Positions 3,747 through 20,166 of a stretch of 20,166 nucleotides of DNA are shown here, piece by piece (positions within the stretch are counted from its first letter, which is position 1; every line of letters begins with the position of its first letter). Origin of the DNA: a virus. A program made the position numbers and the translations under genes. The DNA is taken from IMG/VR virus record IMGVR_UViG_3300021142_001074, positions 1 through 20,166 of that record; one strand, 5' to 3'. The notes under the pieces are model-generated. The model was not told the DNA's origin, ran no database searches, and was given only the letters and a program-made list of their open reading frames with translations.

Positions 3747-3775
3747 ATTGTAACACCGTGTGTAAATAATGTCAA
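3747..3775 (-). promoter_or_regulatory. Strong sigma70-type promoter for the tRNA-like gene and leftward operon
   Basis: On the minus strand, TTGACA (3775-3770, perfect -35) and TACAAT (3752-3747, five of six -10 bases) are separated by exactly 17 bases. Counting seven bases past the -10 places the transcription start on base 3740, the first base of the tRNA-like acceptor stem. The -35 lies inside the first codons of the rightward radical SAM gene, so the two divergent units share this sequence. It probably also supplies the downstream protein genes, since no terminator is visible between the RNA and the gene at 3599. Confidence 0.75.
3761..3768 (+). promoter_or_regulatory. T4-late-type box TGTAAATA ahead of the first radical SAM block
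   Basis: TGTAAATA on the plus strand ends directly before ATG 3769 and six bases before a second in-frame ATG at 3775. No Shine-Dalgarno sequence is present. If it works as a T4-type late promoter, the message would begin close to the second ATG and be leaderless. It is one of four similar boxes in the window, all in gene-to-gene gaps. Confidence 0.4.
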
Positions 3776-4734
3776 TGAACTTTAACACTATACCATTCCA
3801 AAATGTTGTTTCGTTTGGACAACAAACAATGCTAGATCGTCCTTTATTTAACGTAAGTTGGATATTGGGACGCTTTTGTAACTATAACTGTAGCTACTGC
3901 TGGCCTTATGCTCGTAGTGACAAAATGGACTACCAGCCATTTGAAGTGTACATTCGAGCAATAGACGAAATTAAACGGCAAGCTCGCCAAAACGGATTTA
4001 CCCAATTCCACTGGAGTTTCAGCGGAGGTGAGCCAACTGCTTACAAACAACTGCCCGAACTAATAAAATATTTAGACGAAACAGAAAGTCCGTACCAAAG
4101 CATCCACATGACAACTAATTTGAGTCCTGGATCTAAATGGTGGAACAATTGGTGTAACATTACGTTGCCCTTACAACGTAAAAGCATTACAGCCAGCTTT
4201 CATGCAGAGTTTGCCAAGGAGCAAGAGTTTGGCGACAAGTGCTTACAGTTAATGTACGAAAGTGTACACGTAACAGTTAACCAAGTTATGGTTCCAGAAA
4301 AGTTTTTTGAAACCCTAGAACGCTGTGAACGACTACGTGCTCGTGGAATCAATGTAACGCTCAAGCCGCAAAGTAATGATAGTGCTACAGCTATAGTAGA
4401 TGGCTATACTCCTGAAATGATTGCTATAATGCAAAATGACTTTGAGCAACAAGAGGGATATCAAATTAGACTAACAGATGGCGACAAAGATTATTATGTA
4501 GATCAAGCAGAAAGATTTAACGCATTGGGGTTTAACTCATTTACCAATTGGACTTGTAATGCAGGATATCAGAGTGTTATAATAAGAGGTAATGAAGTCA
4601 AACGTGCATATAGCTGTCACGAAGCACCGTTGGGGACGATAGAAAAATTTACTTTGTTTTCCGCCCCACAAAAATGTATAACTGCTAGGTGCGTTAGTTC
4701 GGCTGATAGCAAAATACCAAAATGTATAAAATAG
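3769..4734 (+). CDS. Radical SAM enzyme with C-terminal Cys-rich (twitch/SPASM-like) domain, type A
   Basis: A 321-residue member of the radical SAM superfamily. The [4Fe-4S] site is CNYNCSYC (C37, C41, C44), preceded by a strand and followed by the SAM-binding SGGEPT (85-90) and a TTN strand (115-117). The C-terminus has WTCNAG (C263), then C283, C303, C308 and C319, the order expected for one auxiliary iron-sulfur cluster. Such enzymes cleave SAM reductively to a 5'-deoxyadenosyl radical and abstract a hydrogen from a substrate, often a peptide, sugar or nucleotide; the substrate here is unknown. It shares the CNYxCxYCWP signature with the gene at 8777. The start could be the ATG at 3775 (third residue). 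The end overlaps the next gene by 13 bases. Confidence 0.9.
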   Translation: MSMNFNTIPFQNVVSFGQQTMLDRPLFNVSWILGRFCNYNCSYCWPYARSDKMDYQPFEVYIRAIDEIKRQARQNGFTQFHWSFSGGEPTAYKQLPELIKYLDETESPYQSIHMTTNLSPGSKWWNNWCNITLPLQRKSITASFHAEFAKEQEFGDKCLQLMYESVHVTVNQVMVPEKFFETLERCERLRARGINVTLKPQSNDSATAIVDGYTPEMIAIMQNDFEQQEGYQIRLTDGDKDYYVDQAERFNALGFNSFTNWTCNAGYQSVIIRGNEVKRAYSCHEAPLGTIEKFTLFSAPQKCITARCVSSADSKIPKCIK

Positions 4735-5702
4735 AAGATATAAGAGATATTCATTTAGAACTAACTAGCAAGTGTCAAGCACGTTGTCCTATGTGCCCAA
4801 GGCGCCTCAACGGCGGTCCTATGAATCCTTTGTTCGATCCAACTGAGATAGATTTAGTAACATTCAAGACTTGGTTCAAACCAGAATTTATACAACAACT
4901 TAATAAATTGTTTATGTGCGGTAATTTAGGCGATCCTATTATTGCAGAAGATTGTTTAGAAATATTTCAGTACCTTAGAGAAACAAATCCTAACATGCAA
5001 CTGACCATGCATACCAATGGCAGTGCTAGAAATGTTGATTGGTGGAAGGCACTAGCCGAGTGCGGAGTTAAAGTTACATTTGGTATCGATGGTTTAGAAG
5101 ATACACATAAGCTATATCGTGTAAGCACAGATTGGCATAAGATTATAAAAAACGCTTGGGCATTTATACAAGCAGGTGGTGAAGCTGAATGGCACATGTT
5201 AGTGTTCAAACATAACGAACATCAAATTGAAGAGTGTCGTGCTATAGCAACAGAAATGAAATTTAAAAATTTTCAAGTTAAACATACTTCAAGATTTGTA
5301 GAAGATAAACTTCATGTGTTAGATGATGCGGGAAGAACTACGCACATACTGTATCCTACAGAAACTAGCAAAGCCATAGTTAATAAAGTTAAAGATAATA
5401 TAAATTCTACTAAGATTAACTGTAAGGCTGTGCAACATAAACAAATGTACATTGCCGCAGACGGTACTGTAAACCCTTGCTGTTGGTTAGACTTTAGTTG
5501 GCAATTACCTAATCAATCAAGTCGAGTAGACTATATGGATGCTGTTGGGATATTTCCTAACTTGCACAAGGACTCGTTAGAAAATATATTCTCTTCAGGA
5601 CACTTTAAACAAATTGAAGATACTTGGGCACACAAGCCTTTGTTAGAATGTTCACGCCAATGCGGCAAGTTTGATAAACTAGGAGAACAGTTTGTTAATT
5701 GA
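4722..5702 (+). CDS. Radical SAM/SPASM enzyme, type B (CPMCPR family), paralogue 1
   Basis: A 326-residue protein. The radical SAM cluster motif is CQARCPMC (C18, C22, C25), followed by PRRLNGG. Where most relatives have GGEP this one has CGNLGDP (66-72), then HTNGS (97-101) and GIDGLEDTHKLYR. The SPASM-like tail carries C234, the pair C253-C254 within an AADGTVNPCCW turn, and C310/C314. It is clearly paralogous to the gene at 6284: same Cys spacing at both ends, same CGNxGDP, same FKHNEHQ at about 162-168. The family includes peptide-modifying and cofactor-building enzymes, so a large substrate is possible. It overlaps the preceding gene by 13 bases and the following TTG-start gene by 11. 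Confidence 0.9.
   Translation: MYKIEDIRDIHLELTSKCQARCPMCPRRLNGGPMNPLFDPTEIDLVTFKTWFKPEFIQQLNKLFMCGNLGDPIIAEDCLEIFQYLRETNPNMQLTMHTNGSARNVDWWKALAECGVKVTFGIDGLEDTHKLYRVSTDWHKIIKNAWAFIQAGGEAEWHMLVFKHNEHQIEECRAIATEMKFKNFQVKHTSRFVEDKLHVLDDAGRTTHILYPTETSKAIVNKVKDNINSTKINCKAVQHKQMYIAADGTVNPCCWLDFSWQLPNQSSRVDYMDAVGIFPNLHKDSLENIFSSGHFKQIEDTWAHKPLLECSRQCGKFDKLGEQFVN
5681..5685 (+). promoter_or_regulatory. Shine-Dalgarno AGGAG supporting a TTG start
   Basis: AGGAG lies six bases before TTG 5692, inside the end of the upstream radical SAM gene. It is one of the strongest Shine-Dalgarno sequences in the window and justifies the TTG start of the methyltransferase-like gene, whose first in-frame ATG is eleven codons later. 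Confidence 0.6.
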
Positions 5703-6291
5703 TACTGAACATCTGCACTATTGGATGCAGGCCATCCGCAATAGTGAAAATCCTATGCGAACTATGGATGCCTTTTGGAGTGGACAACTAAAAAGCAAAG
5801 AGTGGTTAATTACATCATTAGCTATGCATTGCCCTGATGGTCCATACTCAATTGACATACACGGCGGCTGGGTTGGTGTACTAGCCAGTATGTTATTTCA
5901 AAGTTCTATTCCTGTTAAGCATATTCGAAGTATTGATATTGATCATACCTGCGAAGACATTGCAACTATGATGAACAAAGGTGAAGAGATTGCAGGTAAG
6001 TTTCGTGCTGTAACATCAGACATGTGTACTATTCGCAGTGACGCTGACGTTATTATCAATACCAGTTGTGAACATATTACACAAGATCAATACGACTTAT
6101 GGCTAAGTGGACATCCGCAAAATAGTTTAATTGTTCTACAAAGTAACAACTATAACATACCAGAACATATTAGAATTGCTAATAGCTTAGAAGAATTCAA
6201 AGAACAAAGCCAACTTAAGGTTTTGTATGCTGACGAATTGCAATTACCGTTGTATAATCGTTATATGATAATAGGTTCAAAATATGCTTAA
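5692..6291 (+). CDS. Class I SAM-dependent methyltransferase-like protein
   Basis: A 199-residue protein starting at TTG 5692, supported by AGGAG six bases upstream. It has a Rossmann-like core: SIDIHGGWVGVLASML (53-68) in the place of motif I, the strand IRSIDIDH (78-85) with acidic residues expected to hold the SAM ribose, and VIINTSCEHI (120-129) as motif IV-like segment. No target-recognition domain is seen, so the methyl acceptor is unknown. The glycine-rich loop is GGWxG rather than the classical GxGxG, so SAM binding is likely but not certain. It sits between two type B radical SAM paralogues and overlaps both neighbours (11 and 8 bases), which suggests action on the same product. Confidence 0.72.
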   Translation: MLIDTEHLHYWMQAIRNSENPMRTMDAFWSGQLKSKEWLITSLAMHCPDGPYSIDIHGGWVGVLASMLFQSSIPVKHIRSIDIDHTCEDIATMMNKGEEIAGKFRAVTSDMCTIRSDADVIINTSCEHITQDQYDLWLSGHPQNSLIVLQSNNYNIPEHIRIANSLEEFKEQSQLKVLYADELQLPLYNRYMIIGSKYA

Positions 6292-7369
6292 ATTTAATGA
6301 ACTTAAAAGTATACAAATAGAGATTAGCAATAGGTGTCAAGCTTCATGCCCTATGTGCCCACGTAATATACACGGTGGTATAGAAAATCCATTATTACCT
6401 ATTAATGAATGGTCGTTAGATGATTTTAAAAAAATATTTACTACAGATATCTTAGCACAACTTGAACTAATTGATTTTTGCGGTAACTTCGGTGACCCAT
6501 TAATGAACAGCGATCTTGTTAGTATGTGCGAGTATGTTAAAGTTAATGCGCCAAACATTAAAGTTGTTATACACACTAATGGAAGTTTAAAATCTACAGC
6601 ATGGTGGAAAAGTTTATATCACGCATTGCCCGAGAATCATATTGTAGCATTTGCATTAGACGGACTAGAAGATACACACAGTCTTTATCGAATTGGTACT
6701 AACTATAATTTAATTATAAAGAACGCTAAAACATTTATTGACGAAGGTGGATCGGCTGAATGGGTATTCATTAGATTCAAACATAACGAACATCAAGTTA
6801 GTCAAGTAGAATTTTTATCTAACAGTTTAGGGTTTAAAAAATTTACAGTAAAAAATAGCAAACGTTTTGCAAAACCCTTTCCTGTAGTTGATAGCACTGG
6901 AAAATTTTTATACAATATTGAGCAAACATCTGATAGCGTTATTAAGTTTGTAAGTAAATCAGATGTAGCAGGACACCAAAATTGGCCTGATGCAGATAAG
7001 ATTAACTGTATGGCGATTGCAAATAAAGATTTGTATATAGATGCACATTATCAACTAAGCCCTTGCTGTATGATTGGAGCATTCCTTTATACAAACTATG
7101 ATGTAGATTTATATAAATCATATAACTTGTTTCAAAAAGATTCTATAGTTGAAGAAGGTGCAAAGGTTCAAGAACAAGTCTTAGGGTTTCCAAGATTTAA
7201 TGTATTAGAATTAGGATTGCAAAACATTGTCAACACTGAACAATGGCAAACAATGTGGCAACAAAAATGGAAAGACAAATCTAGTTCAACTTGTATAATA
7301 ATGTGTGGCCCTCATAGTCCTTACATAAGTATAGATGATCAAAAAATTAAGATGATAAACAATGAATAA
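6284..7369 (+). CDS. Radical SAM/SPASM enzyme, type B, paralogue 2
   Basis: A 361-residue radical SAM enzyme with cluster motif CQASCPMC (C18, C22, C25), CGNFGDP at 66-72 in place of GGEP, HTNGS at 97-101, ALDGLEDTHSLYR, and a SPASM-like tail (C242, C261, C262, C337, C341). Cluster positions match the gene at 4722 residue for residue over the first 100 amino acids, so the two arose by duplication. It is longer mainly through an insertion of about 30 residues between the middle and last tail cysteines. The start overlaps the methyltransferase-like gene by 8 bases, and the end overlaps the next gene by 8. Substrate unknown. Confidence 0.9.
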   Translation: MLKFNELKSIQIEISNRCQASCPMCPRNIHGGIENPLLPINEWSLDDFKKIFTTDILAQLELIDFCGNFGDPLMNSDLVSMCEYVKVNAPNIKVVIHTNGSLKSTAWWKSLYHALPENHIVAFALDGLEDTHSLYRIGTNYNLIIKNAKTFIDEGGSAEWVFIRFKHNEHQVSQVEFLSNSLGFKKFTVKNSKRFAKPFPVVDSTGKFLYNIEQTSDSVIKFVSKSDVAGHQNWPDADKINCMAIANKDLYIDAHYQLSPCCMIGAFLYTNYDVDLYKSYNLFQKDSIVEEGAKVQEQVLGFPRFNVLELGLQNIVNTEQWQTMWQQKWKDKSSSTCIIMCGPHSPYISIDDQKIKMINNE

Positions 7370-8780
7370 AGTATTTTGGATACAACCAGAAGAGACACAG
7401 TTAGGTAATTGGCAAAGACAAATTACTGAAGTGTCTGGCAGTCCTAGTTTTTGTGTATTACCTTGGATACATCTGGCAACTCGCCCAAACGGCGATATGC
7501 GTATATGCTGTGTTGCAAATGCATCAGGTGCTGACACTGGCGACTATACTGTTGGCTTAGTTAAAATGGAAGACGGTAAGCCAGCTAACTTTTCACATGA
7601 CTTGCCTACACAAGCATTTAACAATGACTATATGAAGTCAGTGCGTAAAACTATGCTAGCAGGAGAAGTACCTGCCAGTTGTGTTAAGTGTTATGAAGAA
7701 GAAGCAGAAGGTATCGCTAGTAAACGTATTTGGGAAACTGGTACTTGGTACTTAAATGAAAAGATTGATATTAAAGAACTAATTGCTGAAACAGAATTAG
7801 ACGGATCAGTTCCTTACAAATTACAATACTTAGACTTACGATTAGGGCATACTTGTAATTTAAAATGTATCATGTGTAGTCCGCATGATTCAAGTATGTG
7901 GGTGCCAGAACATAAAAAAGTGTTTCCTATATTCACTAGCCCATTAATCAAAAAACAAATGAGCTGGGAAGCAACTGATTTTAATAACAAGTGGCATGAG
8001 AACCCAGAGTTCTGGAAAGAAGTTTACGATCAAATTCCTAATATCAAACAATTATACTTTGCAGGTGGTGAGCCATTACTAATCAAAGAGCATAAAGTAT
8101 TCCTGCTAGAAATTATCAAGCGTGGGTATGCTGGACAGATTAGTCTACGCTACAACACTAATGGCATATTAGTCAATGATGAAATTATTGAAATATGGAG
8201 CCAGTTCCGTAAAGTTAAAGTAGGTGTTAGCCTAGACGGTATTGGTCCACGTGGCGAGTACATACGTTATCCATTAGATTGGAAAGTTGTAGAGGAGAAT
8301 CTAATTAAACTAGACAATGCTCCAGACAACATACAAACTAACATTGCTATGGCTGTACAAATCTTAAACATCAAACACGTTCCAGATTTTATTAAATGGA
8401 AAGTGCGTATGAACTTTAAGAAAGTTAACTTTGATAAAAATGCCGCTGGACAAATTATGGGTGGTGGATTAGTAGGTGTACACTTACTATGGATACCTAC
8501 ATGGCTAAGTCTACGTGTACTGCCTAAAGAAGATAAACAAGAAGTACGTCAATTATTTGCAGAACTGCAAGAATGGTTATGGAAAAATTACACACAGGAC
8601 AAGGAGTTCTGGGAAGTTAATCCGTACGGATGGAAACGTTGGGAAGGCATCTTAGATTGGATGGACAAAGAGGACCACACTAATTTATTACCAGACTTTA
8701 AGGATTACATTACTACAATGGATACCCAACGCAGTACAGATTTTAAAACAACATTTCCAGAGTTGGCACACTTACTATGA
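7362..8780 (+). CDS. Radical SAM enzyme with N-terminal Cys-rich domain, type C
   Basis: A 472-residue protein with inverted architecture. The auxiliary-cluster-like domain comes first: C31 in FCVLPWIHLATRPNGDMRICC (C49-C50), then C107 and C110 in the turn VKCYEEEA. The radical SAM core follows: CNLKCIMC (C165, C169, C172), AGGEPL (234-239), NTNG (265-268), SLDGIG (290-295). The C-terminus has the pattern DTQRxxDF...FPEL, which is shared with its paralogue at 11477. Proteins with this N-terminal twitch-like layout are known from marine phages as unassigned radical SAM proteins (recall). The end overlaps the next gene by ATGA (8777-8780), so the two are probably co-translated. Confidence 0.9.
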   Translation: MNKVFWIQPEETQLGNWQRQITEVSGSPSFCVLPWIHLATRPNGDMRICCVANASGADTGDYTVGLVKMEDGKPANFSHDLPTQAFNNDYMKSVRKTMLAGEVPASCVKCYEEEAEGIASKRIWETGTWYLNEKIDIKELIAETELDGSVPYKLQYLDLRLGHTCNLKCIMCSPHDSSMWVPEHKKVFPIFTSPLIKKQMSWEATDFNNKWHENPEFWKEVYDQIPNIKQLYFAGGEPLLIKEHKVFLLEIIKRGYAGQISLRYNTNGILVNDEIIEIWSQFRKVKVGVSLDGIGPRGEYIRYPLDWKVVEENLIKLDNAPDNIQTNIAMAVQILNIKHVPDFIKWKVRMNFKKVNFDKNAAGQIMGGGLVGVHLLWIPTWLSLRVLPKEDKQEVRQLFAELQEWLWKNYTQDKEFWEVNPYGWKRWEGILDWMDKEDHTNLLPDFKDYITTMDTQRSTDFKTTFPELAHLL

Positions 8781-9814
8781 TACCTATTAAGATTGTATCA
8801 ACGCAGAAACCCAACATCTTAGCAATAAGATGGAATCCTAATAATGTTTGTAATTACAAATGTGAATACTGCTGGCCCGATAACAATGCGGGCGACTATC
8901 TTTCTCCAAAGAATTTAGATTTAGTAGTTAAAAACTTTAATCACTTTATAGCAACTTACAAACAAAAACTAGGCAAGACTAAAATACATCTTAGCCTAGC
9001 AGGTGGAGAGCCTACACTATGGAGAGACCTTGCGCTATTCATAGAAGAAATTAAAAAAGAAAACGACATCTATTTAAGTTTAATCAGCAATGGGTCACGC
9101 ACACTACGCTGGTGGAAAGAATACGGACACTTAATTGATAACGCTCATTTGTCATACCACATCTCCCAAGCTGATCCGGATCACATGATTGCTGTAGCAG
9201 ATACATTATTTGAATACAACAAAAAGGTAACTGTCAAAGTTCTAATGGATCGCAAGCATTGGCAAGAAGGATTAGACGTTATTGACTATATGAAAAAGAA
9301 CAGCAAGTACAATTGGTTTATTATAACTTGTGAAGTTATCGAACCTGAAGTTGCTAAGATTGGTAACATCAAAGTTGTCAATGCTGATGATATACAAATA
9401 ACACCTGAGCAAAAACGTTTCTTAAAAAACCCTTTAAAGCGTATACCTAATCTTCTTTGGATTTGGAAAAACAGAAAATTAATATTTGAAGGGCAAATGC
9501 GTCTATACGAAAGTGTAGCAACACTTGATAACGGCAAAACTGTACGAGCAAAGTCTAACACTTACATTAACAATAACTGGACTAACTTTGAAGGTTGGAG
9601 TTGCGATATAGGACTAGACAATGTTTATATCAGTTGGACAGGAGAAATACAAGGATCATGCCAACAAACTATCTACGGGTTAGACTACTCGTTTAACATA
9701 CTAGATGAAAACTTTGTAGAAAAATTTAATCCTGAATTTAAATCTAGTATCTGTTCTATTAAGAATTGCTTATGTAGTTGCGAAACGCACCAATCAAAGT
9801 TTAAACTTAGTTAA
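8777..9814 (+). CDS. Radical SAM enzyme with C-terminal Cys-rich domain, type A
   Basis: A 345-residue radical SAM protein. Motifs: CNYKCEYC (C25, C29, C32) followed by WPD, AGGEPT (75-80), and a SNGS strand. The C-terminal auxiliary domain has WSCDIG (C277), C296, and a run C326, C331, C333, C335; the extra Cys compared with its relatives may alter the cluster. It is closest in layout to the genes at 3769 (CNYxCxYCWP) and 9794. The start is the ATGA overlap with the type C gene; the last 21 bases overlap the tail of the convergent gene at 9794. It ends KFKLS, the last residues being encoded within a palindrome. Confidence 0.9.
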   Translation: MIPIKIVSTQKPNILAIRWNPNNVCNYKCEYCWPDNNAGDYLSPKNLDLVVKNFNHFIATYKQKLGKTKIHLSLAGGEPTLWRDLALFIEEIKKENDIYLSLISNGSRTLRWWKEYGHLIDNAHLSYHISQADPDHMIAVADTLFEYNKKVTVKVLMDRKHWQEGLDVIDYMKKNSKYNWFIITCEVIEPEVAKIGNIKVVNADDIQITPEQKRFLKNPLKRIPNLLWIWKNRKLIFEGQMRLYESVATLDNGKTVRAKSNTYINNNWTNFEGWSCDIGLDNVYISWTGEIQGSCQQTIYGLDYSFNILDENFVEKFNPEFKSSICSIKNCLCSCETHQSKFKLS

Positions 9815-10690
9815 CGGTATATCAGCGGCGCAGGTACAGAAATTACGGTCACAAGTTACGGGTTCGCTAGGAGCAACGAAGCTTCCTTCATATATGTTGC
9901 CAAGACTACCACCGACTCTACAAGTCGCTCTGTGTACATCTCCGTCCCAATTTATCATTAGGCTTTCTATACCTGCGTTGCATGACCAGTCTTTGTATTT
10001 GTTCATGTGCAGTTTAATTATGTCGTTGGCATGATACATTTGTTTAGGATCATCATCAATAACACAATTTGCTTCTACTGTTGCTTCATACTCTTTGACC
10101 CAAGCTAAGTCTTCTGCATTATATCGCATGTCATCAAACAAGTCGTGATCACCTTGTGTCCAACGAACTCTACGAACGGCATGAGGTACATTACTTGCTC
10201 TTAACGCTTCTGCAATATATCTAGTACGTTTCATGTGATCCTGATGTGCCATCACGTGTACTAATATCTTTCCACTGAACAGTTCTTTAGTATTAACAAT
10301 AGTATCTAACACACGTCTAACGTCGTACTCCATATGTACACTAAACACAAATTGATCCACGGGCAAACTAGAATAGAATTCATGTGGTAGTGTTCCGTTA
10401 GTTGTTACACTAATCCATGTGATGCCAACATGCTTACAGTATGTAACAAGCTCTTTAAACTTAGGATGCACAGTTGGCTCGCCACCTGTGAAACTCAAAC
10501 GTATAGGTTTGCCTAGTGTAACAAGTTTGTCAACACATGCCTTTAATTTTTCTATGTCAGTGTGCGGGCTAGAATTATCGTGTATGCTACTAGGGCAGTA
10601 ACTACAATCAAAGTTACAACGCTTGCCTAAGTTCCATTCAATCTTAATAGTACCTGTATGTGTCGGGTATCGACTGGCTACTTTAAACAT
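9794..10690 (-). CDS. Radical SAM enzyme with C-terminal Cys-rich domain, type A
   Basis: A 298-residue radical SAM enzyme. CNFDCSYC (C25, C29, C32) is the cluster site, FTGGEPT (67-73) the SAM-binding motif, TTNGT the next strand. The tail has WSCNAG (C237), a NWDGDVHRATC strand pair (C257), LGNI, and C280, C285, C287. The phrase CNAG...G.v.rA.C.....LGNI is shared with the gene at 3769, making it a second close relative. It is last in the leftward block: it overlaps the upstream unknown gene by 13 bases and the convergent plus-strand gene by 21. Likely iron-sulfur enzyme of unknown substrate. Confidence 0.9.
   Translation of the reverse strand: MFKVASRYPTHTGTIKIEWNLGKRCNFDCSYCPSSIHDNSSPHTDIEKLKACVDKLVTLGKPIRLSFTGGEPTVHPKFKELVTYCKHVGITWISVTTNGTLPHEFYSSLPVDQFVFSVHMEYDVRRVLDTIVNTKELFSGKILVHVMAHQDHMKRTRYIAEALRASNVPHAVRRVRWTQGDHDLFDDMRYNAEDLAWVKEYEATVEANCVIDDDPKQMYHANDIIKLHMNKYKDWSCNAGIESLMINWDGDVHRATCRVGGSLGNIYEGSFVAPSEPVTCDRNFCTCAADIPLTKFKL
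9797..9808. repeat. 12-bp perfect palindrome AAGTTTAAACTT inside a convergent gene overlap
   Basis: The sequence reads the same on both strands and lies where two type A radical SAM genes meet tail to tail. In frame on each strand it encodes Lys-Phe-Lys-Leu, so both proteins end in KFKL (one with an added Ser). With no loop bases and no T-run it does not look like a terminator. Confidence 0.8.
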
Positions 10691-12736: not shown

Positions 12737-13352
12737 TTATTATCTTATGTAATCGTTCAGCCGCCTGACGATGTGATATCGGTCCAGGGTGGCTGTTATC
12801 TAATGCCATGTCTAACTTGTGTTGTATTATTTCGTTTGGAATAAAATTTTCTAACGGCTGAGTAAAATGAGGCATCACTTCATACCATCCATGATATGCA
12901 CAAAAATGATGTTGCTTTACCCCTTTAATTTTTAAATAGGATTCTGCATGGTGCATATACAACCCCATCCTAACAGCCATGTCGTAATCATTGTGTACAT
13001 CGAAATATTTTTTAATAAACTTTGTATCCTTGTGCCACACACTTAGTCGAAGTGCAGATTCAACACCGAGCATATTTTTACTAAAGATACAATCTCTTAA
13101 ACTGTAAGTCCATCCAACAATTACAGTATCAGTTGGCAATGCATCAAAACTTATAATCTCTCTCAAAATTTGTATGTTGCTAAATCCCGGAGTTGATTTA
13201 TTAACAACTTCAAGCCCTAACATATTGCCTAGCACTTGTGGCCAGGCTAATTTACTAGCAGTAGGTCCGTGCCATCCTTTATCTGGAATCCAACAATCTT
13301 CTAATCCGTGTCCAAATGTAAAACTATCACCGAACGTTATTAATCTAGGCAT
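12723..13352 (-). CDS. SGNH/GDSL-type hydrolase
   Basis: A 209-residue protein with the SGNH signatures in order: block I ITFGDSFTFG (S10 as nucleophile), block II NKSTPGFSN with the oxyanion Gly (G56), a strand VIVGWTYSLRD (77-87) where block III normally has GxND, and block V DNSHPG with D185 and H188. The Asn of block III is replaced, so oxyanion-hole geometry may differ. The fold is used by esterases, lipases and carbohydrate O-acetyl transferases or esterases. No signal peptide, so it probably acts in the cytoplasm on a cell- or phage-made molecule. It overlaps the PLP gene upstream by 8 bases and the radical SAM gene downstream by 14. Confidence 0.85.
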   Translation of the reverse strand: MPRLITFGDSFTFGHGLEDCWIPDKGWHGPTASKLAWPQVLGNMLGLEVVNKSTPGFSNIQILREIISFDALPTDTVIVGWTYSLRDCIFSKNMLGVESALRLSVWHKDTKFIKKYFDVHNDYDMAVRMGLYMHHAESYLKIKGVKQHHFCAYHGWYEVMPHFTQPLENFIPNEIIQHKLDMALDNSHPGPISHRQAAERLHKIINEPK

Positions 13353-14196
13353 TTTCTAAATACCTTATTAACGGGCTTACACCTACAGGTTGGTTATCAC
13401 GCAATGCTAGGTAGATGCTTTTAGTTGGAGTTAAATTAAAATCTTTACAAATTTTGTAATACCTATCACCGTGTGTATTCCAAAGATAGTCTGTTGGTAG
13501 GTTGCGAAGAAAATGTAATCCTATCATAGCAGGCGCACGAAGATTCATATTAAAATCATTCATAATAGTAATAGCATCTGCTGAGGACTCTCTAGTCCAA
13601 CGTAAGCCAATCCTATTCCACCCTAATCCTAACCCTTTGCTCAAGCTAATACCTACAGACCGGATTGCGCTATGAGATACATCAAAGTCAATTCCGCGGC
13701 AGCAAGTAAGCCAAGCGCCATCCACATGTACACTAATACCTTTGTCTCTCGCTTCATCTAATATCTCCTTCATCTCTATGTGTACATCTCCTGTACTAGG
13801 AAATGGCATAGCAATGATTAATGGTAAATCTTTACGCAAGTATCCAGGAACGCTGTAGACTAAATTTGGATCTAATCTACTGTGATACCTATAGTCACCT
13901 TTTAATGTTTGTACTGGACCTTTCATGTAGACAGTATCAATAAATTGGGTGCATCCATTAATAATATCTACACGACTAAAATCATCAAACCCAGTTAACT
14001 TATTGTGTGTGCTTTGAAACAACCAATCGGTCATTTCTTTTTTAAAGTTAGTATAAACCTTATCAGTAATGTCCTTATCTAGTTTACCAGACATTACATC
14101 TTGAATTAATAGTTCAATACGATTATCCACTAATGGTTGTGGTCTTTCTATTTCTAAATATTTTGGATCGTATTCTGGAGCAATCTTAATCTTCAT
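13345..14196 (-). CDS. Short PLP-dependent aminotransferase-fold (fold type I) protein
   Basis: A 283-residue protein with the key marks of fold-type-I PLP enzymes: VHVDGAW (156-162) with D159 to contact the pyridine nitrogen, and SLSKGLGLGWNRIGLRW (184-200) where K187 is the expected Schiff-base lysine. An earlier NGCTQFID stretch (80-87) resembles the phosphate-cup turn. Typical members run to 380-420 residues, so the N-terminal region and small C-terminal domain are strongly reduced. It may transaminate, decarboxylate or cleave an amino acid, or may make an amino sugar; I cannot choose. It is the first gene of the leftward block, with a CGTAAATA box four bases before its ATG. Confidence 0.82.
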   Translation of the reverse strand: MKIKIAPEYDPKYLEIERPQPLVDNRIELLIQDVMSGKLDKDITDKVYTNFKKEMTDWLFQSTHNKLTGFDDFSRVDIINGCTQFIDTVYMKGPVQTLKGDYRYHSRLDPNLVYSVPGYLRKDLPLIIAMPFPSTGDVHIEMKEILDEARDKGISVHVDGAWLTCCRGIDFDVSHSAIRSVGISLSKGLGLGWNRIGLRWTRESSADAITIMNDFNMNLRAPAMIGLHFLRNLPTDYLWNTHGDRYYKICKDFNLTPTKSIYLALRDNQPVGVSPLIRYLENA

Positions 14197-14208: not shown

Positions 14209-14222
14209 TCATTATAGTAGCA

Positions 14223-14230
14223 TATAAATA
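14223..14230 (+). promoter_or_regulatory. Perfect T4 late-promoter box TATAAATA
   Basis: TATAAATA on the plus strand lies four bases before ATG 14235, in the 38-base divergent gap 14197-14234. It matches the T4 late consensus exactly. There is no Shine-Dalgarno sequence between box and start. A start of transcription five or six bases past the box falls on the ATG, predicting a leaderless message for the rightward block. Confidence 0.5.
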
Positions 14231-14234
14231 TTTC

Positions 14235-14900
14235 ATGCTTATACCTACCAATTATACAACAGATCCAAAATTATTTCAAGAGGCGTGTAGCCAATTACCT
14301 AAAGCAGGTATGAAAACTACTATTAATCAACCCACAGGCAATTTCTTTTATGACCCTTGGGAGTTAAAAGAAGAGTACAAAGGAACCATTTGGGAAACGC
14401 TTTATAACTCATTGCCTGTTGTTAAAGGTGAAGCGAGAATAATTATTTTGGATCCAGGACAAAGTTATACAGCTCATGCAGACATTGATGACAGATATCA
14501 TTTAAACATTTTAGGAGATGAAAGTTTCCTAATTGATTTAATGCGCGAGCAGATGCACAAGTTGAATCAAGACGGCATATGGTATGATATGGATGCGGGC
14601 TTTCTGCATACTGCCGCTAATTTTGGTCGTCGTGCTAGAGTGCAATTGGTTATTAGAAAATTATTAAAAAAGAATAAGTTAGTTAACCCTATTGAAGTGG
14701 CATTAACTACAACAATGACAAACGCAGACCATGCTAGATACTTGTTTGACAACACAATTAGTATTTGGCTCAACGAAGCAAACAAGCACGGATACATAAC
14801 TAACTTTGCATACTCGTCACCTTTTGTAAAATTTACTATAGAACAAGATAAGTTAGATTCTTTAAAACATATTTTGCCAGACGAGTTTAAGATCCTATGA
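14235..14900 (+). CDS. Aspartyl/asparaginyl beta-hydroxylase-like 2OG-Fe(II) oxygenase
   Basis: A 221-residue protein. The iron-binding triad is visible: HAD in YTAHADIDDRYHLNIL (H81, D83), and H125 in DAGFLHTAANFG, followed ten residues later by R135 for the 2-oxoglutarate carboxylate (RARVQLVI). The DxGFLHTAxNxG...RxxLVI pattern is that of the Asp/Asn hydroxylase subgroup, which hydroxylates protein side chains or, in relatives, small molecules. Residues 140-221 form an extra helical/beta tail of unknown role. It opens the rightward block after a TATAAATA box and overlaps the following radical SAM gene by ATGA. Confidence 0.82.
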   Translation: MLIPTNYTTDPKLFQEACSQLPKAGMKTTINQPTGNFFYDPWELKEEYKGTIWETLYNSLPVVKGEARIIILDPGQSYTAHADIDDRYHLNILGDESFLIDLMREQMHKLNQDGIWYDMDAGFLHTAANFGRRARVQLVIRKLLKKNKLVNPIEVALTTTMTNADHARYLFDNTISIWLNEANKHGYITNFAYSSPFVKFTIEQDKLDSLKHILPDEFKIL

Positions 14901-16441
14901 CCCACGCACTATTCTTTAGCCTAACAGGTAAACGCTGGGAACGCATATTGTGGACTCACCGTGTAGCTACCTTTCTACGTATGAATGACTGGGATGCAGA
15001 AGTTGTAGACTTTACAGCATTTTGGCAACTAGAAGAATTACAAGAGTTTGTGCGTTCACGCACTACTGGCAAGACAGTTATGTTTTGTTTTGGTACTGCT
15101 TTCCTAAATCCATGGAGCCCATACCTAAATGAATTCATTGCTTGGCTAAAGAAAGAATATCCAAGCATACCAGTTGTAGTTGGTGGTAACAATTCATTAA
15201 CTACTCCTGCTAATGGTGTAGACTATTGGGTTGATAGTTATGGAGAAAATGCTGTACTAGCATTGTGCCAACATCTTATTGGAACGCTAGGTGCTCCATT
15301 AATGACTGACCCTGCGTTCTTTGGATCAAAGAAAGTTATTCGTGGGCTTCATCATTATCCTTCAGCACCATTAGATAGTTATCTAGTGGACTATGAAGCA
15401 CGTGACTTTATGATGCCTTGGGAGTGCCCACAGATTGAAACAGCACGTGGTTGTATGTTTAGTTGTAGCTATTGTAACTTTCCTATCATAGGACAAGCCA
15501 AAGATGTTAGTGTTAGCAAAGAACAATTTAAACTGCAAATGCAAACAGGCTACGAAAAGTGGGGCATTAAGAATTGGCGTGTAATGGACGAAACATTTAA
15601 TGATCGTCCTGAGAAACTACAAAAGTATGCTGAAGCTGTAGATGAACTAGGATACAATCCTTGGATATGCGGATTTGCTCGTGGCGATTTAGTAGTAAAA
15701 CATCGTGAGCATTGGGACACTTATATTAGATTAGGATTCCTTGGACACTCAATGGGCATTGAAACATTTAATCATGCCGCAGGCAAACTTGTACGTAAGG
15801 GCATGGATCCTGATAAGCTACAACAAGGACTGGTAGAGTTTCAAGAGTATACTGATATTCATGCGCCTAATCGATACAGAGCTAACATACAAATGATATG
15901 TGGTATCCCTGGAGAAAGTGTTGAGTCTTGGAATACATCTTTAGAATGGCTTAATACTAATTGGACTAGACAAAGTGCCAGCGCACATATTTTAGAAGTA
16001 CCCGATTATGATGAGTCATTAACTAATCAAAGTCGATTTACTAAGGAACTTGTAAGCAATGGGTTAGTTAAGTTAGAGGCTAGACAAAATCCAGGGTACG
16101 AAGTTACTAAAGACAGCAGGGGCAATGTTGTATTCAAATCTACTACCCCAAGAGGCGGTGGCGTGGGCAGTACTAGAAACGACATTGTTATTTGGAGTCA
16201 TAACACTATGGATTGGTATCAAGCTGAAACATTGGTGCAAGAGTTTTATAGCGATAATGGATTCAAAGGACTGCGTGGGTGTAATCCATTCTTATCTGAT
16301 AGGCTATTCGCTTTCTACGAAACAAACTCCTATGAAGAAATATATAATTACAAACTATCAGATGTAGATACAGCCGATCAAAAGTTTAAGGATCAAGTTC
16401 AATCTTACATTGATAAAAAATTAAATTGGAATACACAATGA
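14897..16441 (+). CDS. Large radical SAM enzyme with B12-domain-like N-terminus, type D
   Basis: A 514-residue protein. Residues 1-150 look like the Rossmann domain found ahead of the core in B12-dependent radical SAM enzymes (HRVATFLRMNDWDAEVVD, later PVVVGGNNS at 92-100 and an SYGENAV turn), but the cobalamin-binding DxHxxG is absent, so it may not bind B12. The core has ETARGCMFSCSYC (C186, C190, C193), followed by DETFND, a GFARGD strand, MGIET, and the late GIPGES that mark this branch. The C-terminal 130 residues are an unrecognised domain. It overlaps its neighbours by ATGA at both ends. Methyl transfer, ring formation or C-C bond chemistry are possible; no specific reaction is claimed. 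Confidence 0.88.
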   Translation: MTHALFFSLTGKRWERILWTHRVATFLRMNDWDAEVVDFTAFWQLEELQEFVRSRTTGKTVMFCFGTAFLNPWSPYLNEFIAWLKKEYPSIPVVVGGNNSLTTPANGVDYWVDSYGENAVLALCQHLIGTLGAPLMTDPAFFGSKKVIRGLHHYPSAPLDSYLVDYEARDFMMPWECPQIETARGCMFSCSYCNFPIIGQAKDVSVSKEQFKLQMQTGYEKWGIKNWRVMDETFNDRPEKLQKYAEAVDELGYNPWICGFARGDLVVKHREHWDTYIRLGFLGHSMGIETFNHAAGKLVRKGMDPDKLQQGLVEFQEYTDIHAPNRYRANIQMICGIPGESVESWNTSLEWLNTNWTRQSASAHILEVPDYDESLTNQSRFTKELVSNGLVKLEARQNPGYEVTKDSRGNVVFKSTTPRGGGVGSTRNDIVIWSHNTMDWYQAETLVQEFYSDNGFKGLRGCNPFLSDRLFAFYETNSYEEIYNYKLSDVDTADQKFKDQVQSYIDKKLNWNTQ

Positions 16442-17133
16442 CAGATACAAGCACATGGGATTACTATCACAAATTAAATCCAACTGGGACACCTTATCCT
16501 TCAAACTTGTTATACACACCTAGGGTTAATCCAGAACGAACAGTAATGTGTGCCCACTACTGTATTGATCCAGCTTACAGACCGGACGAAACAATACTAG
16601 TACCAGAAGAGTTAGTAGACTGGTTCTTTCATAGAGATGTTAAGTTTTTAAAACAGTTGTCGCATCTTAAGACTACACCGGAACTATATGATGTAGACTT
16701 TGAAAATAGAAAAATTTTTATGGAGTGGAATAACGAAACACTATCACAAGTATTGTTTACTCCAGGAAGAAGCCTAGATGAAGAAGTTCCTAATTGGAAA
16801 GAACAAATGAAGGATTTCTTTATTGCAACAAAAGCAAATAATTTTTGGAAAGTATCTTTGTATCCAAATTGTTTCTTTATGTCAAAAGATGGTCAGTTAA
16901 AAACTATAGACAACTATGCTGTTATTCCTTACGAAGAACGTTTTATAGAAAGAAAAATAATAGAAGGCATTATTGGTAAAGACGGTGCGTATCGTTTTGA
17001 TCAATCTACAGATGAAAAAGGTTTTATTGATTTTAAAAAGTTCTTTGAAATTACAATTACAAAACATTTAAAAGAACGATCATGGGGCAATACTGTATTT
17101 GCTGAAATATTTGAAGAAGTTTACAATGATTGA
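16438..17133 (+). CDS. Kinase-fold (phosphotransferase-like) protein, apparently degenerate
   Basis: A 231-residue protein; the ATG at 16438, in an ATGA overlap with the upstream stop, is preferred to an in-frame TTG at 16426. The order of elements resembles a small protein-kinase-like or APH-like fold: a DVKFLKQLSHLKTTPELYDVDFENRKIFMEW stretch like the helix C plus hinge region, then FWKVSLYPNCFFMSKDGQLKTIDNYAV (136-162). The last lines up with the HxDxxxxNxxxxxxGxxxxIDF catalytic loop and metal-binding Asp. If that alignment holds, N144 and D158 are kept but the catalytic His and Asp are replaced by Lys and Ser. It may be a pseudokinase-like scaffold or an unrelated fold. Overlaps the next gene by 8 bases. 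Confidence 0.5.
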   Translation: MTDTSTWDYYHKLNPTGTPYPSNLLYTPRVNPERTVMCAHYCIDPAYRPDETILVPEELVDWFFHRDVKFLKQLSHLKTTPELYDVDFENRKIFMEWNNETLSQVLFTPGRSLDEEVPNWKEQMKDFFIATKANNFWKVSLYPNCFFMSKDGQLKTIDNYAVIPYEERFIERKIIEGIIGKDGAYRFDQSTDEKGFIDFKKFFEITITKHLKERSWGNTVFAEIFEEVYND

Positions 17134-17617
17134 TTGGAATTCAGTAATAGCTAATCTCAAAGACGGGCGAGTTGTTACTGTTGATCCTGCTCGATGGAAT
17201 ATGAGTAATCCTGAGTACGCAGAAATACTCAAGCTATGGAAAGACAGCAACTTCAATACTGATAGCGTCAAGTGGACCAACTACTATGATACTAAGGATA
17301 TTGAATCAAAGCTAGCTGAACAATTTTATGTAAAGCCGTTGCGCAGTTGGATCAGTTGTGTAGAACCTGGATACATGACTGGACATCATTATGACATTGA
17401 TGACAATGAACAAGAGTATTTAAAACTAGGTAAAATAAAAAGATTCTCTGTGTTTATGAGTGAGCCCAGTCCAGGGCAACTATTCATAATGGGGGACACC
17501 TATTACTACAACATGGAACAAGGTGCTGTGCTAGTTTGGAAAAACTACAGAGAATGGCACAACGGCATTAATGGCAGTCTTGCTAACAAATATATGTTCC
17601 ATTTGCTAGGATATTGA
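17126..17617 (+). CDS. 2OG-Fe(II) oxygenase-like/cupin protein
   Basis: A 163-residue protein starting at ATG 17126, which overlaps the upstream stop by 8 bases; an in-frame TTG at 17099 would overlap by 35. The C-terminal half is a double-stranded beta-helix type: GHHYDID gives HxD (H88, D90), then GQLFIMGD, GAVLVWKN, and REWHNGING with H145. The 2-oxoglutarate-binding Arg expected ten residues on is a Lys (K155). It is the most divergent of the five HxD...H proteins in the window, and might be an iron-dependent hydroxylase or a non-catalytic relative. Its last 35 bases overlap the tail of the convergent SGNH gene. Confidence 0.65.
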   Translation: MIDWNSVIANLKDGRVVTVDPARWNMSNPEYAEILKLWKDSNFNTDSVKWTNYYDTKDIESKLAEQFYVKPLRSWISCVEPGYMTGHHYDIDDNEQEYLKLGKIKRFSVFMSEPSPGQLFIMGDTYYYNMEQGAVLVWKNYREWHNGINGSLANKYMFHLLGY

Positions 17618-18419
17618 TTACATCGTTAGCAAACTGTTTGTGTGACAGTACTCCCGGGTGTCCATCCCTAGCTCTATCAATAGTATTAAATTTAAGTATG
17701 TCAATGTTAAATGCGGCTTTGACTATTTGAATCATATCATCGTCCCAAGAGCTTAATACTAAATTAATGTCTTTTGATTTAGCAATATCAATAATCCATT
17801 GAATAGAATCAACAGTTTGTGATAATAAAAACTGATCACTAAAGTCTTTTACTATATCAACCCTAACTGATTCTAGTTCCTGCTGTGTTGTGCTGTAGGC
17901 TAATAATATTGATTGTAGATGATTAGTTTTATCACTGTAGTGAAATCTTGTAAACGGTGGCAAGTTTATTACTGCTGTTTTTATATCCCATATCTTTGAT
18001 GCGGCTGAAAGAGTTAATGCTATCCGGTGACATCCTGCACCTGGGATTCCTAAATTTAAATATTTTGTGTCTTGATGCTTAGAAATCAAATCAGCATAAA
18101 TGTCATGCTCAGGCAACCCTTGTCCAAAGGTTATGCTACATCCAAGAAATGCTAACAGTTCTTTTTCATCAGTAGCAGGGTAATTTCCTCTAAACCCTAT
18201 GTCGTTTATATAATAGCTAAACGATTCTTGACCGCTTGATTGCGATTTAGTTCGTTCCTCTTCTGACAAATATTTGATCCAACCAAAGCTACTATATTCG
18301 TCAAAGTGTTCATTGTTAACAGCATACTGAAGGCAACTAAACTGTAACATATCTAAAGGAGTACTAACCAATGCTGGACTTTTTCCTTTTAAAAAATTTA
18401 GCAAGTGCTCAGTCAGCAT
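17583..18419 (-). CDS. SGNH hydrolase with N-terminal extension
   Basis: A 278-residue protein. After about 70 N-terminal residues comes NDIGFRG (72-78), a motif that often precedes block I in this superfamily, then LGCSITFGQG (S95 nucleophile; GCS replaces GDS), LGIPGAG (block II), VINLPPFTRF in place of block III, and RARDGHPG near the end (D252, H254), followed by a helix. The D-to-H spacing is one residue shorter than in the first SGNH protein of the window. No signal peptide. Likely an O-acyl hydrolase or transferase acting in the cytoplasm; substrate unknown. It follows the 2OG gene at 18421 after a one-base gap. Confidence 0.82.
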   Translation of the reverse strand: MLTEHLLNFLKGKSPALVSTPLDMLQFSCLQYAVNNEHFDEYSSFGWIKYLSEEERTKSQSSGQESFSYYINDIGFRGNYPATDEKELLAFLGCSITFGQGLPEHDIYADLISKHQDTKYLNLGIPGAGCHRIALTLSAASKIWDIKTAVINLPPFTRFHYSDKTNHLQSILLAYSTTQQELESVRVDIVKDFSDQFLLSQTVDSIQWIIDIAKSKDINLVLSSWDDDMIQIVKAAFNIDILKFNTIDRARDGHPGVLSHKQFANDVINILANGTYIC

Positions 18420-18420
18420 A

Positions 18421-18945
18421 TCAATCGTACATTGTTATTTGTAGTGTGTATCTTACATTATAGCCTACGTTAGCAGGACCGTGTATAGTCATAGGATCAC
18501 TCCACTCATACATGTCTCCTGCCTTGTAATTAGATATGTATTTGTCATCCCATACAAATATATGTCCAGGCTCCCAATCTTGTAAGAACATTGTATAGCG
18601 CACAGGATTACTAACTTCAGTTAGTTGAGGATCAATGTGCATAGCCTGAAACTCTCCTGGATACAACATTACAAACCACCAATTAATATTAGAACGGTGC
18701 TCGGGCACCGCTGGTAATGTAAATTTAAAATCCTGCATTTCTTTAGACTTAGGATTCATCTGATGAAAGAAATGTTTGTTACTAGAATAACCTGGACGAG
18801 CCATCTCTGTAAATTTTTCTAGGATAGGATTACCTTTCCATCGATCTGGCTGCCAAACAGGAGTGCGATCACCTTGGGACGCTTTTAGATGTTCTATAAT
18901 ACCCTGTTCTTCAATCCAGGATTTAAAATTGTCAATATATTTCAT
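18421..18945 (-). CDS. 2OG-Fe(II) oxygenase-like protein, duplicated family copy 1
   Basis: A 174-residue protein with the full 2OG-Fe(II) signature: MHID (H103, D105), PGHIFVWDD, AGDMYEWSDPMTIHGPANVGYN with distal H155, and R165 ten residues later for 2-oxoglutarate. It contains a WWFVMLYPGE strand just before the HxD. The truncated gene at the right edge is a close paralogue, sharing for example FLQDWEPGHIF and ISNYKAGDMYEWSDP. Small single-domain oxygenases of this kind are frequent in marine phages (recall), where the targets are mostly unknown. It overlaps the upstream gene by a single base (TAATG). Confidence 0.8.
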   Translation of the reverse strand: MKYIDNFKSWIEEQGIIEHLKASQGDRTPVWQPDRWKGNPILEKFTEMARPGYSSNKHFFHQMNPKSKEMQDFKFTLPAVPEHRSNINWWFVMLYPGEFQAMHIDPQLTEVSNPVRYTMFLQDWEPGHIFVWDDKYISNYKAGDMYEWSDPMTIHGPANVGYNVRYTLQITMYD

Positions 18946-19748
18946 TAATAGCTCTCTAAATGATCAATGCCTAGCTGTTTACGAAATTCTTCTGTAAACT
19001 TGCCATCAATTCTCAAACTATAGCTTTGCTCCATAATACGTTCGCCACCGTGCCAGTCAACATCATTCCACCATGCGGCTCTAGTGTTAAGATACGTCTT
19101 GTCTTTTGTTTCTGGATCCCATAGGTACATAGCTTTCTTTGTGTTGGGGCGAACGTGTATAAATTCGTTGCGATGCGGTTTAACTACATTAACACCATTC
19201 TTAGCATCTAAGTCTCTGTGTTCAAACGGGATACCATCTGCTTCACAGTGGAAGAATATAACACGGCCGATGTCTTCAAATACAGTACCTACTAGGCTTT
19301 CTACCCATTTAACTGTTCCTGGAAAGTATTTGGCTTCGGGTGTTAACTTACGTGGAGCAGTACGATCATCCCACGAACCCTCTTCCCACAAGTAATAGTA
19401 AATGTATGGATCGTATGAACCCATAGCCATTTTTAAAAAACGTGTAAAGATATTGCGCTGTTGGAAATTTTTAAAATCTGTTGGCATTAATTTTATGCCT
19501 GCTTGATATATTGGATCGTCTTTAGGCAGTTCCATAAACTCGTCCATAGACTGATAGATAGGTTTCCAACTAAGTTTATAGCTCATGTCGTCGAATGTAA
19601 AACCTGGTTTCATCCATGTGCCTTCTTTGGCAAACTCTCGTGCTAGAGCAAATCCTGTAAGTATCTCAGGTTGTAATTGATCAAATTGATTCATGTCTAA
19701 GTATGGAGACATATCAAAGTAATGTTTGTTGTTTATGCCGTGTATCAT
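18945..19748 (-). CDS. 2OG-Fe(II)/Asp-hydroxylase-like protein
   Basis: A 267-residue protein. The first 150 residues are a Tyr/Trp/Met-rich segment I do not recognise. The last 110 hold an HxD...H...R set: FEHRDLD (H177, D179), a NEFIHVRPNTKKAMYLWD strand pair, DVDWHGG (H233) and SYSLRIDG with R246. This is consistent with an iron- and 2-oxoglutarate-dependent hydroxylase, although the gap from the distal His to the Arg is 13, longer than in its neighbours. It is encoded between two copies of a smaller oxygenase family, three bases from one and overlapping the other by one base, which suggests that they form one functional set. Confidence 0.72.
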   Translation of the reverse strand: MIHGINNKHYFDMSPYLDMNQFDQLQPEILTGFALAREFAKEGTWMKPGFTFDDMSYKLSWKPIYQSMDEFMELPKDDPIYQAGIKLMPTDFKNFQQRNIFTRFLKMAMGSYDPYIYYYLWEEGSWDDRTAPRKLTPEAKYFPGTVKWVESLVGTVFEDIGRVIFFHCEADGIPFEHRDLDAKNGVNVVKPHRNEFIHVRPNTKKAMYLWDPETKDKTYLNTRAAWWNDVDWHGGERIMEQSYSLRIDGKFTEEFRKQLGIDHLESY

Positions 19749-19751
19749 ATT

Positions 19752-20166
19752 TTAATCGTTTAATGTAATTTGAAATGTATATCTTGGATTGTATCCTATG
19801 TTAGCAGGCGCATGTAATGATAACGGATCACTCCATTCGTACATATCACCTGCTTTATAGTTAGAAATGTATTCATCATCTAACACAAATATATGTCCAG
19901 GCTCCCAATCTTGTAAGAATATAGTGTACCTTACAAGATTTTTAACATCTACGGTATGTGCATCTAAGTGCATACACTGATATTCACCTGGCAGTAATTT
20001 CACAAACCACCAATTTGTATTTGTACGAGTCGCCGGCAAGTCTGGCAAATCAAATTTAAAATTTGCTATCTCTTGAGAATCTGGCCCGAGCGTGTGAAAG
20101 AATGCCTGATCGTTTGAGTACCAAGGGTATGCTAATTCTCTAATTTTTTCTAGTACAGGATGCCCA
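19752..20166 (-). CDS. 2OG-Fe(II) oxygenase-like protein, duplicated family copy 2 (cut by right edge)
   Basis: The frame is open from its stop at 19752 to the end of the window, so the N-terminus is missing; the first complete codons give GHPVLEKIRELAYPWYSND. The visible 137 residues align throughout with the protein at 18421: GHPVLEKI/GNPILEKF, NTNWWFV/NINWWFV, then CMHLD (HxD), FLQDWEPGHIFVLDDEYI, KAGDMYEWSDP, LHAPANIGYNPR with the distal His and the Arg. All iron and 2-oxoglutarate ligands are kept, so both copies look active. It is the upstream gene of the leftward block as far as visible. Confidence 0.82.
   Translation of the reverse strand, partial: GHPVLEKIRELAYPWYSNDQAFFHTLGPDSQEIANFKFDLPDLPATRTNTNWWFVKLLPGEYQCMHLDAHTVDVKNLVRYTIFLQDWEPGHIFVLDDEYISNYKAGDMYEWSDPLSLHAPANIGYNPRYTFQITLND

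Follow-up and report, generated by a model that had tools for sequence, protein, structure and literature searches.

An ordered and conserved island of radical SAM and oxygenase-like tailoring genes in T4-related jumbo phages

The DNA described here is a stretch of 20,166 nucleotides (nt) from the IMG/VR virus record IMGVR_UViG_3300021142_001074 (working label G000), and this whole stretch is referred to below as the window. From position 3769 to the end of the window, open reading frame calling gives a compact block of 19 genes that overlap or abut, with a total of 42 nt of noncoding sequence between genes across 16.4 kb. The first-pass annotation, made from the sequence alone, described this block as an island of radical S-adenosylmethionine (rSAM) enzymes, oxygenase-like proteins, and other tailoring enzymes. 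Stop-to-stop frames of 250 amino acids (aa) or more number 12 in the window, compared with 0 in 200 shuffles, so chance is excluded as the source of the open frames, and the island of tailoring genes in the window is confirmed as real. The 19 genes are listed below in order of position (2OG, 2-oxoglutarate; PLP, pyridoxal 5'-phosphate).

3769..4734 (+), rS1: rSAM protein of architecture A; PF04055 E = 3e-14
4722..5702 (+), rS2: rSAM/SPASM protein of architecture B; PF04055 E = 2.1e-8, SPASM E = 7e-8; phrog_21308
5692..6291 (+): putative class I methyltransferase (MT); no Pfam match; invariant GGW, DID, and N-T-S-C-E-H motifs
6284..7369 (+), rS3: rSAM protein of architecture B, a paralogue of rS2 and clustering with it; PF04055 E = 1.7e-6, above cut-off in a further search
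7362..8780 (+), rS4: N_Twi_rSAM protein of architecture C; NF033640 395 bits; PF04055 E = 2.7e-12
8777..9814 (+), rS5: rSAM protein of architecture A; PF04055 E = 1.7e-12
9794..10690 (-), rS6: rSAM protein of architecture A; PF04055 E = 5.9e-15
10678..11484 (-): protein without assigned function; no family match; present in a minority of islands (11 loci)
11477..12736 (-), rS7: N_Twi_rSAM protein of architecture C; NF033640 327 bits; SPASM E = 1.3e-8
12723..13352 (-), SGNH1: SGNH-hydrolase-like protein; Lipase_GDSL_2 E = 0.003, below cut-off
13345..14196 (-): putative PLP-dependent enzyme; invariant K187 and D159; no Pfam match; threonine-aldolase match non-significant
14235..14900 (+), OG1: 2OG-Fe(II)-like, aspartate/asparagine hydroxylase-like protein; PF05118 match below threshold (E = 0.0015), seen in 10 of 14 members; HxD...H...R invariant
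14897..16441 (+), rS8: B12-type rSAM protein of architecture D; PF04055 E = 2.5e-11; PhpK-like, 58 bits, below cut-off
16426..17133 (+), kin: kinase-fold protein in which the catalytic HxD is not recognisable; profile matches to Protein Data Bank (PDB) kinases at E ~1e-3; homologous to c15
17099..17617 (+), OG2: 2OG-Fe(II)-like protein; HxD...H invariant; homologous to OG3 and OG5
17583..18419 (-), SGNH2: SGNH-hydrolase-like protein; DUF6473 E = 6e-4, below cut-off
18421..18945 (-), OG3: 2OG-Fe(II)-like protein; HxD...H...R invariant
18945..19748 (-), OG4: HxD...H...R protein; triad kept in 38 of 38; no family match
19752..20165 (-), OG5: paralogue of OG3 in the same cluster, cut off by the end of the window

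All eight rSAM genes predicted at first pass are open, without internal stops; each matches PF04055, and the CxxxCxxC cluster motif is intact in every one. The motif is likewise present in 439 of 439 full-length rSAM homologues. The division into four architectures also stands, with rS1, rS5, and rS6 in A, rS2 and rS3 in B, rS4 and rS7 in C, and rS8 in D. Both architecture C proteins match NF033640 over the full length of the profile (1-397) and lie well above its curated cut-off of 170 bits, which places them in the N_Twi_rSAM family; the family model itself names no reaction. The remaining rSAM proteins are less readily named. For rS8, the score against the P-methyltransferase model TIGR04479 is 58 bits with a cut-off of 600, so its likeness to PhpK is one of type only; it also scores weakly to ladderane-type models, and a PDB profile search gave no usable match. 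Scores of rS1, rS5, and rS6 against the viperin-type antiviral model NF038283 are 35-53 bits with a cut-off of 180. The ATG of rS1 at 3769 is missing from its homologues and has a TAAATA-type motif immediately upstream; the true start is probably at 3775 (MNF).

Five oxygenase-like proteins had been proposed from an HxD...H pattern, and this metal triad is kept in every full-length homologue of OG1 to OG5. Family profiles are less decisive: OG1 and two homologues of OG3/5 give sub-threshold PF05118 matches, OG4 gives none, and PDB profile searches with OG3/5 and with OG4 yielded no usable match. OG2 is homologous to OG3/OG5 by hhalign (98.2%). The complete OG5 is 182 aa long and is found in the matching contig L029 at 14856-15404. 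Among the other tailoring-type genes, motifs make the SGNH, PLP, and methyltransferase labels plausible, although none of these proteins reaches a curated cut-off; the kinase-fold label agrees with the profile match, but the usual catalytic HxD is not recognisable.

The set recurs as one ordered block across divergent phages. With rS8 as bait, 67 contigs were found in IMG/VR, and 34 of them had sufficient flank to be read as 21-kb loci. Across these 34 loci, rS4, rS7, and kin are present in all 34, OG1 in 33, rS2/3 and OG3/5 in 32, and c3 (described below) and OG2 in 30; each core family occurs in 21-34 loci, and each locus carries 7-11 rSAM genes. Scans based on c3 and kin gave six contigs of 145-353 kb, each with 8-13 rSAM genes; the island has an identical order in every one. 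For four contigs (G013, G014, G016, and G018), the island region read showed no rS8. The c3 and kin scans thus recover the same block without rS8, which rules out the linkage as a mere artefact of the rS8 bait. The core order is rS1-MT-rS2/3-rS4-rS5-rS6-rS7-(SGNH/PLP/PP-loop)-OG1-(rS8)-kin-OG2-OG3/5-OG4-c3-c15-c16-c17-(c21/c19).

Gene order is still kept where kin identity between phages falls to 33-40%. Because most loci belong to a single phage lineage, the linkage partly reflects common descent; given the divergence between the compared sequences, passive hitch-hiking of the block appears unlikely. All 19 window genes have a nonsynonymous rate (dN) of 0.01-0.29 compared with a synonymous rate (dS) of 0.5-3 or saturated, and all are under purifying selection. 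The first-pass annotation had named two observations that would speak against a joint pathway, namely genes scattered among phages without linkage and many inactivated copies. Neither is seen, since the block is conserved and its genes are open, with motifs kept and dN far below dS. These results support the island as one functional unit.

Among 50,697 named phage genomes (near and tblastn searches), the window DNA, rS8, c3, OG3, OG4, the PLP gene, and c15 had no match at the sensitivity used, and rS4 and rS6 found remote rSAM proteins only. A search for a bacterial source with the rS8-family profile gave one lone homologue of 39% identity in a Pseudomonadales metagenome-assembled genome (MAG), with no linked genes. 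This MAG homologue of the B12-type rSAM protein (L097, 3495-5018) is 50% identical to a paralogue in G006, and other island genes are absent from its surroundings. N_Twi_rSAM is above cut-off in 1 of 369 genomes of the class to which the MAG belongs, with uninformative neighbours.

The island continues past the window end, as read from contig L029, which has 100% protein identity over rS2-OG5. The continuation contains two c3 genes, c15, c16, an AMP-binding enzyme, and c17. The c3 genes are tandem rSAM genes with an HMPTM/Tes-type zinc ribbon (PF23545, above cut-off). They share this zinc ribbon and the rSAM domain with Tes/HMPTM (MJ0619-type) proteins; the score against the tetraether synthase model NF045702 is 78 bits with a cut-off of 450, and lipid coupling is not claimed for c3. 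The c15 gene encodes a second kinase-fold protein, homologous to kin (99.5%), and c16 has a GNAT fold in its AlphaFold model (pLDDT 87.8). In the c17 model (mean pLDDT 76.5, pTM 0.50), the C-terminus matches methyltransferases and the N-terminus weakly matches GT-A glycosyltransferases. A UvdE-type UV endonuclease gene is also present in the island-bearing contig G004 (L077, 3127-4209).

Islands of other phages contain additional TauD- and AspH-like oxygenases and QueC-like PP-loop ATPases, one family of which (c24) matches PF06508 above cut-off. These ATPases and weak QueE-like scores would fit a pathway that makes a hypermodified nucleotide or a 7-deazaguanine-like base, or installs it, in phage DNA or RNA. 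Known phage hypermodification employs rSAM, PLP, and 2OG enzymes. The QueC-like step is a single one, however, and c22 and c24 are absent from many islands, including that of the window. A dUMP hydroxymethylase and a transglycosylase were not recognised, and of the QueC, QueD, QueE, FolE, and transglycosylase set of 7-deazaguanine DNA modification only the QueC-like c24 was, no genome-wide search having been made. A nucleotide product is considered very improbable.

The window has no structural hallmark, so its assignment to a phage rests on relatives. Of 10 island-bearing contigs searched, 4 encode the T4 gp23 capsid protein (PF07068 scores reaching 328 bits), and the other six may be fragments. 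The capsid of G015 shares 74% identity with that of Sinorhizobium phage Phosso (469 kb), 72% with that of Vibrio phage 2.275.O, 67% with that of PA5oct, and 66% with that of CBB. With a gp23-type capsid and contigs of up to 353 kb, the island carriers are, by the capsids of relatives, T4-related PA5oct-like jumbo phages, a group also labelled RaK2-like. Most island contigs presumably come from lakes, an impression gained from sample numbers. The 2025 paper on the 'moraphage' lineage was considered as a description of these phages and set aside; it does not mention rSAM genes (PMC12619734).

Upstream flanks of the island match PHROGs for tail-fibre, baseplate, and virion-structural proteins. 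Leading up to rS1, the genes for a giant protein, a 200-aa protein, tail fibres, and two glycosyltransferase-like proteins lie in a collinear order that G005 and G014 share and that G018 and G013 share in part. The giant tail protein beside the island is 2,500-5,200 aa long. The two glycosyltransferase-like proteins have no match in the 50,697 named phage genomes.

A T4 late promoter element, NATAAATA, precedes the first genes of strand blocks, mostly 4-8 nt ahead of the start codon. It is present at 71 of 296 block starts compared with 16 of 957 internal starts; after removal of duplicate upstream sequences, the counts are 42 of 198 and 9 of 720 (p = 1e-21). One copy of a motif of this type lies within the window:

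14223..14230 (+): TATAAATA, T4-late-type promoter motif ahead of OG1, conserved in position upstream of OG1 in 32 loci

The motif count in the window alone is not significant (1 found, 2.8 expected), and the evidence lies in the conserved position. With a spacing of 4-8 nt to the start codon, the predicted transcripts would be nearly leaderless. A gene for translation initiation factor IF-1 lies beside the island at 2465-2716 (-) (PF01176, E = 8e-18) and is also present in about ten related loci, which is intriguing given transcripts of this kind.

The tail-fibre and glycosyltransferase-like neighbourhood and the late-type promoters fit the tailoring of a glycan or a structural protein. The first-pass annotation had suggested a polymer or small molecule, such as a surface glycan, a structural protein, or a modified nucleotide; the first two options agree with position and promoters, whereas the last is backed solely by the QueC-like genes of some islands. 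We tentatively favour, at somewhat less than even confidence, a late-made tailoring module for glycan-type decoration of tail fibres or of the host surface. In such a module, rSAM and 2OG enzymes would successively remodel a sugar- or amino-acid-like precursor. The rSAM steps may include dehydrogenation, epimerisation, C-methylation, or C-C coupling, and the 2OG enzymes may carry out hydroxylation. Enzymes that transfer methyl and acyl groups would then cap the product, joined in some phages by carbamoyl-, halo-, and adenylate-forming enzymes, and its attachment to phage adhesins or the infected-cell envelope would fall to the glycosyltransferase-like proteins together with the putative GT-A domain in c17. 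Such decoration could affect binding to the receptor, tolerance of factors from the host or the environment, or superinfection. The expansion of paralogues (rS2/3, OG3/5, and c3) would fit position-specific variants of a single chemistry. Besides position and promoters, this reading draws on the conserved order and the purifying selection, on the GNAT fold of c16 and the methyltransferase and weakly GT-A-like parts of c17, on decoration-type enzymes in the flanks (epimerase, carbamoyltransferase, tryptophan halogenase, hexapeptide transferase, and AMP ligase), on a different rSAM cluster beside homologous fibre genes in phage Phosso, and on the published host-recognition clusters that vary by rSAM cassettes (PMC7029224).

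Several points weigh against glycan-type decoration. No island rSAM protein reaches the equivalog cut-off of a sugar-active family, and neither a substrate nor a product nor a modified protein was seen. Assignment to a sugar draws on flanking genes and on the weak structural match of c17, and the flanking glycosyltransferase-like proteins have no Pfam match and were labelled by eye. The tail-fibre neighbourhood of T4-like phages also houses unrelated cargo. The late-motif test is based on a consensus and on loci that are related to one another, not on transcript mapping.

The giant virion proteins next to the island also bear on the principal alternative, in which the enzymes directly modify a polypeptide, in a manner like that of ribosomally synthesised and post-translationally modified peptides or of collagen, on a virion protein such as the giant tail protein and with no glycan. 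Giant proteins adjoin not only the island but also a separate rSAM cluster in the cultured phage Phosso (PV764938). Phosso has four PF04055 matches at 185-193 kb, three of them above cut-off, and another annotated rSAM gene at 179.9 kb. The cluster has about nine genes (L288 13272-20396, equal to 185271-192395), and next to it lie three genes with homologues in G005, those for a giant protein (25% identity), a 199-aa protein (56%), and a tail fibre (27%). Phosso thus shares with the island carriers a related capsid and homologous giant-fibre and tail-fibre neighbours, but its rSAM proteins are not orthologous to those of the island (sub-significant family scores), and homologues of N_Twi and OG proteins were not detected in it. 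This one case suggests that rSAM pathways have repeatedly settled at the site adjacent to the giant fibre. PF04055 has no match in PA5oct or 2.275.O and one sub-threshold match in CBB. Vibrio phage K566 has six matches, several of them N_Twi-like by similarity.

Enzymes of the SPASM/twitch rSAM, B12-rSAM, and AspH-like 2OG types are typical peptide modifiers, which also favours a polypeptide substrate. The packing of the island, however, leaves no room between genes for a precursor peptide; a distant precursor was not sought. The N_Twi and architecture A proteins fall below every peptide-maturase cut-off, and the methyl-, acyl-, and carbamoyltransferase and PP-loop genes would be superfluous for plain protein hydroxylation. 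Direct polypeptide modification is therefore judged unlikely.

In G003 and G005, the flanks of the island contain a carbamoyltransferase, a tryptophan halogenase, a hexapeptide transferase, an AMP ligase, an epimerase, and a 2OG enzyme. The halogenase and carbamoyltransferase are located at L084 16134-17648 and at the L092/L093 boundary (G003 38803-40284), a pairing also found in marine cyanomyophages. The mix of B12-rSAM, PLP, AMP ligase, GNAT, halogenase, and carbamoyltransferase genes resembles secondary-metabolite clusters and would suit a diffusible small molecule made during infection, whether an antibiotic, a signal, or a siderophore-like or anti-defence compound. Against such a product, no transporter, carrier protein, or nonribosomal peptide or polyketide synthase was noticed in the islands read, and a tail-fibre location with late-type promoters would be unexpected. 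A diffusible product is accordingly regarded as quite improbable.

Arrays of rSAM genes in phages have precedents. Campylobacter phages CP220 and CPt10 encode 11 and 12 rSAM proteins, five of them in one exchangeable cluster of about 10 kb (Timms et al. 2010, PMC2853527). These phages (Firehammervirus) are likewise T4-related, with many rSAM genes including several short MoaA-like ones. They show short, weak similarity to rS5, rS6, and c3, with no common gene order, and the comparison did not support orthology. They have a glycine amidinotransferase instead, and their two sequenced clusters are mutually unrelated, unlike the conserved island described here. The host-recognition clusters of pelagimyophages vary by rSAM cassettes, with a freshwater group lacking rSAM genes (2020, PMC7029224). 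As in the island, these pelagimyophage and cyanomyophage clusters are tail-fibre-associated and contain glycosyltransferases, with rSAM cassettes in some genomes. They are hypervariable, whereas the island has a conserved, ordered core, and the likeness lies in position among tail-fibre genes. Cyanomyophages also carry up to five 2OG genes, a halogenase, and a carbamoyltransferase (PMC3037559).

For cyanophages (PMC3037559) and for CP220 and CPt10 (PMC2853527), proposals of auxiliary metabolism have been published. An equivalent role for the island would be to shift host pools, for example by 2-oxoglutarate drawdown, as proposed for the cyanophages, or by a boost of host metabolism, as proposed for CP220 and CPt10. 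The strict order of many distinct enzyme families and the late-type promoters fit a pathway better than they fit consumption of co-substrates in bulk, and an auxiliary role appears most improbable. The first-pass statement that such dense radical chemistry is not a described phage pathway needs to be narrowed, as dense phage rSAM arrays have been known since 2010 (PMC2853527) and rSAM host-recognition cassettes since 2020 (PMC7029224). It holds for the conserved, ordered, oxygenase-rich version, which is not described in the open-licence literature searched.

The edge of the island upstream of rS1 contains one further feature:

3627..3740 (-): tRNA-like RNA with an acceptor stem, T arm, encoded 3' ACCA, Leu-like D arm, and long variable-type arm

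An extended hairpin replaces the anticodon arm, leaving no usable anticodon. A canonical tRNA at this position was rejected; ARAGORN and Rfam detect none in the window. In an alignment of 12 sequences, compensatory changes are present in 10 of 28 pairs. A covariance model (R1) finds the RNA in 23 places (some loci overlapping or duplicate), upstream of rS1 and on the opposite strand wherever rS1 can be placed. The G003 and G005 loci gave no match to R1, so the pathway there is not strictly dependent on the RNA. Candidate roles are a charged RNA, a decoy for a host nuclease, or a decayed tRNA. A putative metalloprotease-like protein at 1799-2461 (-), with an HEFRH motif and no Pfam match, is conserved in about ten related loci.

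A wider reading joins several of these features. The island could be a virus-owned, vertically conserved pathway of at least 20 steps that combines oxygen-sensitive rSAM with oxygen-requiring 2OG chemistry and produces a novel decoration of the phage's own adhesins. The giant-fibre site would then be a hot-spot where jumbo phages acquire rSAM pathways again and again, each unrelated to the last, and the edge RNA with its tRNA-like structure might serve as a non-decoding aminoacyl carrier. This combination seems unlikely.

Arrays of rSAM genes in phages were described in 2010 and have lacked an explanation since. The array described here is at once conserved, ordered, and widespread; phages that carry different subsets of its genes can therefore be compared to test its role. 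A cultured relative with its own rSAM array, Sinorhizobium phage Phosso, offers a tractable model. If the island does decorate the virion or the host surface, few known chemical pathways encoded by viruses would match it in elaboration, and it would supply new enzymes, N_Twi_rSAM included.

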